Assembly: GCA_949291975.1 (NCBI GenBank)
Contig: CASEYA010000112.1
Location: forward strand, 1-9,543
Length of the DNA stretch: 9,543 nucleotides
Direction of reading: 5' to 3'
Origin: an uncultured Christensenella sp.
Lineage (GTDB): Bacteria; Bacillota; Clostridia; Christensenellales; UBA1242
Each line of letters opens with the position of its first letter. Position 1 is the stretch's first letter. The translations under genes were made by a program, and so were the position numbers. The notes under the pieces are model-generated. The model saw only the letters and a list, made by a program, of their open reading frames with translations, made no database searches and was not told the origin of the DNA. Shown piece by piece: positions 7,445-9,543 of this stretch.

Positions 7445-7460
7445 AAACATGAATAAATAT

Positions 7461-7466
7461 GAGGTG
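7461..7466 (+). promoter_or_regulatory. rpe ribosome binding site (decides start)
   Basis: GAGGTG lies 4 nt before ATG 7471. The upstream in-frame ATG at 7459 overlaps this motif and has no Shine-Dalgarno of its own, so 7471 is preferred. Confidence 0.7.
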
Positions 7467-7470
7467 TGCA

Positions 7471-8142
7471 ATGAAAAAAATTTTGGTTGCTCCAAGCACT
7501 GACCCTTGTGATATAAAAGACCTTGCAATATATGTTAAGGAACTTGAAAAACAGGGTGCAGATTGGATTCATTGTGATATAATGGATGGAAAGTTTGTTA
7601 AAAACAGAACATATGACCATCTTGTTTTTGCTTTTTTAAGAAAAGCAACAAGTTTGCCACTTGATGTTCATTTAATGGTTGAAAATCCAATGGATGTTGT
7701 TGATAATTATGTAAAATATGGTGCAAACATCATAACGGTGCATTATGAGGCTTTTCATGATATCATAGAACTTATTAACGCATTGCAAGAAATAAGAAGA
7801 AAGGGTGTAAAGGTTGGTATTTCCATAAAACCTCAAACGCAGGTGGAAAAGTTGTCTCACCTGATAAACTATGTTGACCTTGTTCTTATAATGAGTGTTG
7901 AGCCAGGAGCAAGTGGGCAAACCTTTCAAAAGGAAAGCCTTATTAAAATTGCATATTTAAACAAAAAAAGAGCAGAACTGGGTCTTGATTTTTTAATTGA
8001 GGTTGATGGTGGGGTAAATACCATAAATGCTCCAATAATTGCGGTAAGTGGTGCTGATGTTCTGGTTTCTGGCAGTGCAATTTTCAATTCAAATGATAGG
8101 AGACAAACCATGCAGATTTTGCGTGGGAAAGAGGCTGAGTAA
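7471..8142 (+). CDS. rpe: Ribulose-phosphate 3-epimerase
   Basis: Rpe interconverts ribulose 5-phosphate and xylulose 5-phosphate in the pentose phosphate pathway. The 223-residue product is a TIM barrel of normal length. The metal-binding set is complete: H34 and D36 in WIHCDIMDG, H67 in DVHLMVENP and D179 in IEVDGGV; D36 and D179 are also the catalytic acid/base pair. Methionines that pack against the substrate (M38, M69, M141) are present, as are the phosphate-binding VDGGVN and VSGSAIF loops. Unusual features are the first loop, APSTDPCDI where the family normally has APSILSADF, FVKNRTYDH where FVPNxTxGP is usual, and GASGQ for GxGGQ. It is still best read as Rpe; a related epimerase of the same fold (for example allulose-6-phosphate epimerase) cannot be excluded. 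In B. subtilis rpe likewise lies a little upstream of spoVM and rpmB, which supports the call. Confidence 0.9.
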   Translation: MKKILVAPSTDPCDIKDLAIYVKELEKQGADWIHCDIMDGKFVKNRTYDHLVFAFLRKATSLPLDVHLMVENPMDVVDNYVKYGANIITVHYEAFHDIIELINALQEIRRKGVKVGISIKPQTQVEKLSHLINYVDLVLIMSVEPGASGQTFQKESLIKIAYLNKKRAELGLDFLIEVDGGVNTINAPIIAVSGADVLVSGSAIFNSNDRRQTMQILRGKEAE

Positions 8143-8340
8143 AAAATATATTCTATAAACAATTTTGTCGTTATAAATATTTTTGTTTGCTTAATTTTAG
8201 AAATATAATCAGTATTAAACATATAACACACGGTTTTTTAACAAGATTTGCTGTTGCTGATTACTAATGTTAATTTTGTTATATGCTGTTACTTAATTTA
8301 TTTATGGATAAACCGAAAAGAAAGAGTGTCAAATTTAAAA
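8143..8340. other. AT-rich intergenic gap after rpe
   Basis: No credible gene is seen on either strand between the rpe stop and the promoter of the small gene. In B. subtilis this position holds thiN, for which no trace is visible. No GC-rich hairpin with a T-run follows rpe, so rpe transcripts may read through into the small downstream gene. Confidence 0.6.
8182..8209 (+). promoter_or_regulatory. Weak candidate promoter in the rpe-spoVM gap
   Basis: A perfect TATAAT (8204-8209) is present, but its best -35 partners are poor (TTTGTT at 16 nt or TTGTTT at 15 nt spacing). Such -10 matches arise easily by chance in DNA this rich in A and T. If real, it would give a long-leader transcript of the downstream small gene. 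Confidence 0.2.
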
Positions 8341-8344
8341 AGTT

Positions 8345-8373
8345 AACAAAAATGTTACCGCTTTCATACAATA
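8345..8373 (+). promoter_or_regulatory. Putative sporulation (sigma-E/sigma-K type) promoter of the small gene
   Basis: The -10 region CATACAATA (8365-8373) fits the B. subtilis sigma-E consensus CATACAnT exactly and also sigma-K CATAnnnTA. The sigma-K -35 mACm is matched by AACA (8345-8348) with a 16-nt spacer. The sigma-E -35 is only partly matched. Transcription would start near 8378-8380, just 5-7 nt before the Shine-Dalgarno. The consensus is known from B. subtilis; its use here is inferred. Confidence 0.5.
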
Positions 8374-8394
8374 CCAAGATGTATGGAGGTAACA
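8353..8394 (+). repeat. Two-part inverted repeat around promoter and ribosome binding site
   Basis: TGTTACC (8353-8359) pairs perfectly with GGTAACA (8388-8394), and inside it CATAC (8365-8369) pairs with GTATG (8381-8385). The gap is 5 nt on the left and 2 nt on the right, with an 11-nt loop. The right arm includes most of the Shine-Dalgarno GGAGGT (8385-8390). RNA read through from upstream could fold and hide it; RNA starting near 8379 lacks the left arm. Confidence 0.5.
8385..8390 (+). promoter_or_regulatory. Strong ribosome binding site of the small gene
   Basis: GGAGGT lies 5 nt before ATG 8396 and is among the best Shine-Dalgarno matches in the window. It is the main evidence that the short frame downstream is translated. 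Confidence 0.75.
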
Positions 8395-8395
8395 A

Positions 8396-8479
8396 ATGCG
8401 CATTATTTGCTTCAAAGCGCCAAGATGTCTTAAAAAGATTTTTAAATGGCTTTTCTTTAAACAATACATAAAAAGATAA
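8396..8479 (+). CDS. spoVM: SpoVM-like 27-residue amphipathic peptide
   Basis: The peptide begins MRIICFKAPRCLKKIFKW. Nine of its 27 residues are Lys or Arg, none is acidic, and the rest are mostly hydrophobic, so residues 10-25 can form a basic amphipathic helix. In B. subtilis, SpoVM is a 26-residue amphipathic helix that recognises the convex forespore membrane and anchors the SpoIVA coat ATPase. An ungapped alignment keeps Met1, a basic residue 2, Lys7, Pro9, a basic residue 10, Leu12, Ile15 and a basic residue 17; Pro9 is important in the known protein. Support also comes from position (after rpe, directly before the inverted rpmB, as in Bacillus), the GGAGGT ribosome binding site, a mother-cell-type promoter just upstream, and a terminator at the stop. 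Overall identity is low, as expected for so short a protein. A small membrane-active toxin is the main alternative. Confidence 0.72.
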   Translation: MRIICFKAPRCLKKIFKWLFFKQYIKR

Positions 8480-8501
8480 AAAACCACCAACGGTGGTTTT
8501 T
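8479..8501. terminator. Bidirectional intrinsic terminator between spoVM-like gene and rpmB
   Basis: A 10-bp stem (8479-8488 with 8492-8501; core CCACC/GGTGG) closes a 3-nt AAC loop. It is flanked by As on the left and Ts on the right, so either strand ends with a U-run. It begins at the last base of the upstream stop codon and ends one base before the rpmB stop, serving both convergent genes. Confidence 0.88.
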
Positions 8502-8502
8502 C

Positions 8503-8700
8503 TTATTGTTGTTTCATTTTTTTAATACAACGAGTGCAAACAGTCATCTTTACAGCATTGCCATTTTCGTCTTCCATGTGAACAGTTTGCAAATTTGGGT
8601 GGCGAGGAGTGTTAGTTCTTCTAAGCACCCACTTACTTTGGCGTTTAACTTGATTGCCAGCCATTTTAGTCTTGCCACAAATTGCACATTCTTTACTCAT
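8503..8700 (-). CDS. rpmB: 50S ribosomal protein L28
   Basis: L28 is a structural protein of the large ribosomal subunit. The 65-residue product starts MSKECAICGKTKMAGNQVKR, continues with RRTNTPRHPNLQTV and ends VCTRCIKKMKQQ. C5 and C8 together with C55 and C58 form a zinc-ribbon (C+) version of L28; the main B. subtilis L28 lacks these paired cysteines. ATG at 8700 is preferred over an upstream GTG at 8709, because that GTG is part of the Shine-Dalgarno. The gene points opposite to its neighbours, convergent with the spoVM-like gene and divergent from the Asp23 gene, as in B. subtilis. Confidence 0.96.
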   Translation of the reverse strand: MSKECAICGKTKMAGNQVKRQSKWVLRRTNTPRHPNLQTVHMEDENGNAVKMTVCTRCIKKMKQQ

Positions 8701-8706
8701 TTTTAG

Positions 8707-8714
8707 CACCCCCT
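8707..8714 (-). promoter_or_regulatory. rpmB ribosome binding site (decides start)
   Basis: On the minus strand this reads AGGGGGTG, one mismatch from AGGAGGTG, 6 nt before ATG 8700. The alternative GTG start (8707-8709) lies inside it. Confidence 0.75.
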
Positions 8715-8895: not shown

Positions 8896-9246
8896 ATGTC
8901 TGTCACAACTTCCAACTATTATGGAAAAATTATGATTTCTGACGATGCTATTGCAACCGTGGCTGCTTCTGCAGCATTAGATTGTTGTGGTGTTGTGGAC
9001 CTTGTTAGCAAGAAACTTTCAGACAACTTTGCCGACCTTTTTAAAAAACAACAACTTGGCAAGGGTGTTAAGGTTTTAACAAGTGAAAACAGAATTTTTA
9101 TTGACCTTTTTGTTATTTTAAAATATGGAGTATCCATCAGTGCTGTTGCAGAATCTTTGAAAAACACTGTTAAATATAAAGTGGAGGAATTTTCTGGCAT
9201 GATAGTGGATACTGTTAATGTTAATGTGGTTGGAGTAAGAGTTTAA
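8896..9246 (+). CDS. yloU: Asp23/Gls24 (YloU) family envelope-stress protein
   Basis: This 116-residue protein belongs to the Asp23 (DUF322) family, whose members are abundant in Bacillota and linked to cell-envelope or alkaline stress. The molecular activity is not firmly known. Family signs are GKIMISDDAIATVAASAALDCCGV near the N-terminus, a central VKVLTSENRIFIDLFVILKYG strand pair, and the ending VNVNVVGVRV. It has no signal peptide or membrane segment, so it is likely cytosolic or held at the membrane by a partner. The start follows AAAGGAG (8884-8890) by 5 nt. The yloU-yloV pairing with the DAK-domain gene downstream (55 nt gap, no terminator seen) is common in Bacillota and suggests cotranscription from the promoter at 8803-8831. 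Confidence 0.92.
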   Translation: MSVTTSNYYGKIMISDDAIATVAASAALDCCGVVDLVSKKLSDNFADLFKKQQLGKGVKVLTSENRIFIDLFVILKYGVSISAVAESLKNTVKYKVEEFSGMIVDTVNVNVVGVRV

Positions 9247-9301: not shown

Positions 9302-9543
9302 ATGCAAAAAATAAATGGTGCAATACTTAGAAAGATGGTTATTGGTGCTTATAACTATCTTGAAGCAAATAAAAAATATATAGACTCTTTAAATGTATAT
9401 CCAGTTCCTGATGGAGATACTGGAAACAATATGTTCTTAACCTTTAAGTCAGCAACAAATGAAGTTAATAATTGTGCAACAAACAATATGGATGCGCTCA
9501 ATGAAGCGCTCAGTAAGGGTGCACTTCGTGGTGCAAGAGGAAA
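9302..9543 (+). CDS. fakA: DAK/DhaL-domain fatty acid kinase ATP-binding subunit FakA (YloV), 3' end outside window
   Basis: The first 80 codons of a YloV/FakA-type protein are visible; the family is usually about 550 residues. FakA proteins bind ATP through an N-terminal DhaL (DAK2-like) domain and phosphorylate fatty acids held by a FakB (DegV-type) partner, feeding exogenous fatty acids into phospholipid synthesis. The diagnostic NVYPVPDGDTGNNM stretch (31-44) carries metal-binding D37 and D39, and ALSKGALRGARG at the edge leads into the nucleotide-binding loop. The start is supported by family alignment and a weak AGGTG (9289-9293) 8 nt upstream. It probably shares the Asp23-gene promoter. 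The C-terminal domains cannot be judged from this window. Confidence 0.93.
   Translation, partial: MQKINGAILRKMVIGAYNYLEANKKYIDSLNVYPVPDGDTGNNMFLTFKSATNEVNNCATNNMDALNEALSKGALRGARG

Follow-up and report, generated by a model that had tools for sequence, protein, structure and literature searches.

The SpoVM peptides of Bacilli and Clostridia share a single residue, Pro9, which passages of PMC5607322 and PMC3533761 give as the only one conserved across all the aligned sequences. Passages of the first paper also tie residue I6 to the binding of SpoIVA, and residues K2 and I15 to the cortex, and describe spoVM as largely dispensable in C. difficile (PMC5607322). Closer to the organism studied here, UBA1242, a family of gut Christensenellales with mostly sub-megabase genomes, was reported in 2025 to have sporulation genes, a result described as "quite unexpected" (PMC12306168). 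We study a frame of 27 codons at positions 8396-8479 of a contig from an uncultured Christensenella sp.; the window is this entire contig, 9,543 nucleotides long (C112 of the source genome, G000). The original prediction took the frame for an unlisted gene coding for a divergent SpoVM. Our reading, based on sequence comparisons, is that of a conserved spoVM-family gene whose product would aid SpoIVA at the forespore membrane, and which is likely expressed late, under sigma-K, and not early, under sigma-E; we give it a probability of about 0.75. The new part of the finding is the promoter pattern before spoVM.

To judge from its relatives, the 27-codon frame belongs to the SpoVM family and is conserved beside rpmB. 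Its product, MRIICFKAPRCLKKIFKWLFFKQYIKR, has 27 amino acids and shows the family trait of fewer than 30 residues with Pro9. Lys7, Pro9 and Leu12 had been singled out as shared with B. subtilis: all three are present, and Ile15 is equal as well. Among the positions highlighted by genetic work in B. subtilis, P9 and I15 are kept, and R2 for K2 and F6 for I6 are similar replacements. The C-terminal half had been taken as a hint that curvature sensing or the SpoIVA contact may differ; this claim is not upheld, since the half is one version of a sequence widespread in the family (KLIFSKQYIRNE in L039, KIIFSKQFIKR in L008, with L011, L042 and L047 as exceptions) and the key residues are kept or similar. 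The peptide was also said to be basic and amphipathic: it is basic, but its hydrophobic moment of 0.44 over residues 10-24 is reached by 21% of shuffles, so that this measure is uninformative and does not mark it out as amphipathic.

The comparison relies on an alignment, A1, of 29 spoVM sequences of 24-31 amino acids. It leaves out second copies of the same gene (L001, L033-L038, L043), L049, whose peptide equals that of L047, the near-identical L050, and the candidates L013, L017, L021 and L119, which are weak or in an unusual place. Residues M1, I3 and P9 are invariant (P9 in 29/29), and K7 and L12 reach at least 90%. Of the 29 sequences, 20 match the NCBIfam model NF033436, SpoVM_broad (best E 3e-7), and one matches Pfam SpoV, PF08183; the window's peptide is not one of the 20. 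A profile of all 29 rows has as its top PDB match B. subtilis SpoVM (2mvh, residues 1-17, E 0.062). Both results speak for the divergent SpoVM that had been proposed.

The promoter pattern before spoVM

The features at the frame are the following, in order of position.

8346..8347, plus strand: predicted -35 element AC, sigma-K type, 17 nucleotides 5' of CATA, conserved with the -10 element and the Shine-Dalgarno sequence
8365..8372, plus strand: predicted -10 element CATACAAT, of the sigma-E/sigma-K class, with a CATA conserved upstream of spoVM
8385..8389, plus strand: Shine-Dalgarno sequence GGAGG, 6 nucleotides 5' of the ATG (5 nucleotides if read as GGAGGT)
8396..8479, plus strand: spoVM, ATG start, 27 codons and TAA, based on the open reading frame (ORF), the profile and conservation
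8479..8501, no strand assigned: terminator-like hairpin between spoVM (plus) and rpmB (minus), with a stem detected on both strands

The original prediction was silent on the sigma-K-type promoter pattern; it had described a near-ideal Shine-Dalgarno sequence 5 nucleotides upstream and a terminator exactly at the stop, and both are there. The first base of the hairpin is the final base of the spoVM stop and, because the stem is detected on both strands, the hairpin could also serve rpmB.

According to a passage of PMC3789822, a T or a C at -35, read by a Gln or an Arg, is the determinant between sigma-E and sigma-K, and a sigma-K-type promoter combines a CATA-type -10 element with AC at -35. 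Both sigma-K-type features are present in the window; the sigma-E-type -35 element, ATA with T at the deciding position, is absent, the base at 8347 being C. By eye, the recognition motifs of G000 have the Gln in SigE (ISQSYISR) and the Arg in SigK (ISRSYISR).

The pattern recurs before the relatives of the gene. CATA lies at most 60 nucleotides upstream of all 29 spoVM genes of A1 (300 shuffles: mean 8.45, maximum 14), and AC stands exactly 17 nucleotides 5' of CATA in 24 of them (shuffles: mean 0.60, maximum 3). A block of 66 nucleotides, 8335-8400, that holds the -35 and -10 elements and the Shine-Dalgarno sequence is 92% conserved with respect to the nearest relative, L002, whose upstream region is otherwise unrelated to the window's: by eye, it holds a dihydrofolate reductase gene. 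A passage of PMC517825 gives the B. subtilis sigma-K spacing as 15 +/- 1 nucleotides between a -35 element of 5 nucleotides and a -10 element of 10, with which the 17 nucleotides of the window agree solely if these longer elements enclose AC and CATA.

The partner gene spoIVA offers a sequence control: T versus C at -35 in two genes of the same genomes. Upstream regions with AC-N16-18-CATA number 41 of 46 for spoVM and 2 of 20 for spoIVA in the family (P 7.6e-10). The 46 regions are the 29 of A1 together with 17 others, found among the loci listed, 30 apiece, from the family and order searches; nine of them (L040, L041, L042, L045, L046, L051, L054, L059, L063) belong to the family by similarity alone, and without these the count is 32/37. 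The 20 spoIVA regions are the 20 listed loci of 141 positive genomes, that of G081 (L119) among them. Position -18 from CATA is C in 39 of 45 spoVM regions (the 46th lacks CATA), whereas 18 of 20 spoIVA regions have T there. Nine genomes belong to both sets: the pattern is before spoVM in eight and before spoIVA in one. In G007, of the window's genus, spoVM (L005) has AC-N17-CATA, and spoIVA lacks the AC pattern, its CATA being preceded by a T at -18.

In four genomes, chosen for the closeness of their spoVM and spoIVA matches (L229-L232), the SpoVM-like frame lies 53 bases directly upstream of spoIVA (G107, L229), or downstream of it, by 74 bases in G081 and by more than 800 in G057 and G137 (L230-L232). 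In all four, spoVM has its own AC-N17-CATA and spoIVA has none. At these loci CATA is 14 nucleotides 5' of the ATG, and almost leaderless messages are possible.

The alternative that survives best is that of an ordinary early SpoVM under sigma-E, the sigma-E of this family tolerating AC at -35. Both described systems speak for it, passages of PMC5607322 placing spoVM of C. difficile under sigma-E control and one of PMC517825 having it switched on by sigma-E in B. subtilis, and 12 of the 46 spoVM regions also hold a TA-type match at the -35 distance. However, the spoIVA promoters of the same family mostly keep a T at the deciding position, as does that of G007, spoIIIAA of G000 has by eye a TCTA-type element, and SigE and SigK retain distinct recognition residues: we consider early expression unlikely.

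If AC-N17-CATA is used by the sigma-K RNA polymerase, as we infer, SpoIVA would be produced first, from sigma-E promoters, and would start covering the forespore. SpoVM would follow under sigma-K, entering the curved outer membrane of the forespore as a short helix and helping to keep SpoIVA in place; it would then lock or mature the basement layer, and tie this layer to cortex synthesis. The predicted binding partners of the window's SpoVM are the convex forespore membrane and SpoIVA, and the probable order is SpoIVA, then SpoVM; the latter would not found the basement layer but would serve in the maturation of that layer or of the cortex. A passage of PMC5607322 reports that the C. difficile spoVM mutant has SpoIVA encasement defects in about 30% of cells, which shows that the founding step can largely proceed without SpoVM. 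A spoVM seemingly expressed after spoIVA would separate the founding of the basement layer from its maturing, and provide a natural test.

Sporulation genes in the genome and the family

The G000 assembly, made up of 142 contigs, has 866,708 bases and is 89.5% complete, which puts the genome at about 0.97 Mb. The original prediction had named two outcomes that would speak against it, a frame that is not conserved and a genome without spoIVA and the sporulation sigma factors; both were examined, and neither was found. The genes that it proposed to look for, spoIVA, sigE, sigK and spo0A, are all in G000: SpoIVA, the partner, scores 615 bits (cut-off 459.9), Spo0A 258 bits (cut-off 200) and SigK, at L166:1843-2553, 288 bits (cut-off 252). 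SigE and SigG are assigned by their best-matching models, at 322 and 353 bits, below the strict cut-offs of 339 and 372. In the spoIIIA-type operon, SpoIIIAA, SpoIIIAE and SpoIIIAG are below strict cut-offs, with SpoIIIAE above the Pfam one, and SpoIIIAB, AC, AD, AF and AH are assigned by position alone. Two further observations concern gene neighbourhoods. The convergent sigG and sigE (L163, on C23) have as neighbours a gene for an HtrA-like protease and another Spo0A-like gene, which scores lower than the first (142 bits, cut-off 200). The first long gene to follow spoIVA is ftsH (L164:37-4116, on C81), whose product is targeted in vitro by SpoVM in B. subtilis.

In a sample of 147 genomes of the family, with listed sizes of 0.5 to 2.0 Mb, SpoIVA is found in 141, SpoIIIAE in 136, and a SpoVM profile match in 129, or in 101 of the 106 good genomes, the rows of the profile being partly drawn from the same genomes that were counted. 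The frame is thus kept in relatives, as had been anticipated. In an order-level sample of 200 genomes, SpoVM matches occur in 73 of 164 SpoIVA-positive and in 4 of 36 SpoIVA-negative genomes (Fisher P 1.2e-4). Genus g58 (G080, G100, G119, G136, G148, G158) has SpoIVA in all six genomes and a SpoVM match in none: there, SpoVM appears to be either lost or strongly diverged. The family of PMC12306168 is probably the window's, in which case its sporulation genes are already published.

The claim that the organism can sporulate is upheld as far as the genes go, and remains an argument from genes. It is rather improbable, and more so than early expression, that these genes are relics or serve another purpose, no spores being made. 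What favours this idea is the near absence of the alpha/beta-type small acid-soluble spore proteins (SASPs, PF00269), which have no match in 146 of the 147 family genomes, the sole match being one of 21 residues at a contig end (G108). Yet the 27-codon gene is under purifying selection and has a conserved promoter, and SpoIVA and SpoIIIAE are almost as widespread as the family itself. In the order sample, alpha/beta SASPs are found in 51 of 200 genomes, and in none of its 13 family members, versus 164 of 200 for SpoIVA. GPR, the SASP-degrading protease, is kept in 75 of the 147 family genomes, including G000 (C59), with its usual substrates unrecognised. Spores without alpha/beta SASPs, or with unrecognised ones, would be notable. 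A passage of PMC10868615 describes Erysipelotrichales as being without essentially all SASPs, so the loss is not unique to this family.

We lean, by a small measure, towards a wider proposal: across the family, spoVM would have moved from the sigma-E to the sigma-K regulon, the basement layer being founded without SpoVM, which would keep a late role tied to the cortex, in spores that are devoid of alpha/beta SASPs.

Other genes may share the pattern. In G007, AC-N17-CATA stands before 8 of the 479 ORFs of at least 70 amino acids that a simple custom caller gave, covering just under half of the genome. They include ddl (D-Ala-D-Ala ligase), murA, murI (glutamate racemase) and a collagen-like protein; two of the four further ones have no Pfam match. 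These genes, three of them for cell-wall precursors, are suggestive of a late cortex and spore-surface regulon. Cortex precursors of B. subtilis are reportedly under sigma-K, going by the title of one paper, and the listed C. difficile sigma-K regulon includes bclA genes. The collagen-repeat protein (L222:12007-12537, minus strand) scores 20 bits with Pfam Collagen, below the cut-off of 27.2; it has an extra C-terminal region, recalls the spore-surface protein BclA, and has AC-N17-CATA in front.

Objections, and the frame as a gene

Several observations weigh against a late spoVM, or against the name SpoVM itself. Outside the family, AC-N16-18-CATA is found in 4 of 25 spoVM regions (25 of 64 non-family positives), and the AC-CATA switch looks family-specific because of this low count; inside it, 5 of the 46 spoVM regions are without the pattern. 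These 46 were taken as the loci with the best scores or the nearest ones and do not sample the 129 at random, and the spoIVA promoter of G000 is unreadable, its contig starting 36 nucleotides before the gene. In G007, other spacings give 0 to 7 ORFs versus 8 at spacing 17: the latter count hardly exceeds the others, so the regulon is suggestive at most, and part noise. The 27-residue peptide alone has no match among the curated SpoVM models, nor in a PDB search, and its identity to B. subtilis SpoVM, on a B. subtilis sequence that is in part provisional, is 5/26. No SpoVM profile match is found in 18 of the 147 family genomes, including all six sampled of genus g58. Lastly, AC-N17-CATA resembles a weak sigma-A promoter too.

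This resemblance opens the reading of constant expression from a sigma-A promoter, TTAACA-18-TACAAT in the window, which a consensus scan rates at 10/12 matches. Among 37 loci with AC-N17-CATA, 27 match TTGACA and 36 match TATAAT in at least 4 of 6 positions, two matches in each coming from the anchor itself. However, CA, which sigma-A does not need, precedes the TA box in 28 of 31 loci anchored without requiring it, where about 4% is expected from base content, and 5 of 45 spoVM regions have the G of TTGACA: a sigma-A promoter is very improbable.

The reading as an accidental frame, or as some other small basic peptide, could appeal to the window peptide being too short on its own for curated models, but is refuted by conservation of profile, synonymous bias, promoter, Shine-Dalgarno sequence and place, and can practically be discarded. 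A profile built from 17 sequences, none known from the window's genus, gives the frame 34.1 bits (E 2.2e-10); the next best of 197 window ORFs has 9.2 bits, and the top score among 40,665 ORFs of 200 codon-shuffled windows is 18.6 bits. Between the window and L002, spoVM has 6 synonymous changes and 1 non-synonymous (binomial P 1.8e-4), and the pooled ratio of non-synonymous to synonymous change, pN/pS, is 0.36 over 36 spoVM pairs. On these comparisons we regard the ORF at 8396-8479 as confirmed to be a real gene, in agreement with the original prediction.

The neighbours of spoVM are as follows.

7459..8142, plus strand: rpe, ribulose-phosphate 3-epimerase (PF00834)
8503..8709, minus strand: rpmB, ribosomal protein L28 (PF00830)
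8896..9246, plus strand: gene of the Asp23 family (PF03780)
9302..9543, plus strand: DAK2-domain gene, truncated at the contig end (PF02734)

With Pfam, the gene order of the window reads ligA, gatC, gatA, gatB, priA, rpe, spoVM, inverted rpmB, Asp23 and DAK2 domain, and thus contains the place of SpoVM-family genes: an adjoining inverted rpmB, then the Asp23 and DAK2-domain genes. An Rfam scan of the window at gathering scores gave no match. The sequence beside rpmB was searched with the pattern K-x-P-[KR] in 30 loci, one of which (L010) has no more than 39 bases there; 12 of them, the window included, have a matching frame. The profile added rpmB-side frames in L008, L011, L018 and L025, and weakly in L017 and L013; the frame shares the strand of rpmB in L011, L025 and L017, and is opposite to it in the window. 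At rpe loci from named genomes, the pattern found a SpoVM-like frame in 21 of 70, to which the profile added L038; 20 of the 21 lie behind rpe on its strand, and that of L094 is on the other. No SpoVM-like frame was found at 19 rpe loci titled Bacteroidetes, Ignavibacteria, Melioribacter or Chlorobiota (best 9.9 bits, E 0.47), nor at the other 29, mostly titled Clostridia or Firmicutes, some of which are ended early by contig ends. Frames that fit a loose pattern, for example in L044, L048, L084, L088, L098 and L099, were set aside as unrelated, the profile not supporting them.

Comparison with known systems

The SpoVM of B. subtilis (2mvh, 26 amino acids) is like that of the window in length, in residues M1, K7, P9, L12 and I15, in its basic charge and in its coexistence with SpoIVA; the window's differs by F6 for I6, by C5, and by its C-terminal half, KWLFFKQYIKR. 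The place beside rpmB is common to both, the order in B. subtilis being rpe, thiN, spoVM, rpmB, yloU, yloV.

The organisms of PMC12306168 are, like the window's, uncultured gut Christensenellales with reduced genomes; that report names no SpoVM, promoter or SASP. Among the titles and abstracts listed by searches of open-licence papers, none concerned SpoVM under sigma-K or SpoVM in the window's family. In a passage of Galperin et al., none of the cultured spore-formers was found to have less than 2.3 Mb, and the segmented filamentous bacteria alone are at 1.5-1.6 Mb (PMC3533761): if it sporulates, the family sits mostly under the size range given there.

Predicted timing is where the described systems and the window part. 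In B. subtilis, sigma-E activates spoVM, according to the relevant passage of PMC517825, whereas the window's gene has a sigma-K-type promoter pattern. The same difference separates the window from C. difficile, whose SpoVM is also clostridial and, in passages of PMC5607322, binds SpoIVA: there spoVM is early, under sigma-E, and here the pattern is of the sigma-K type.
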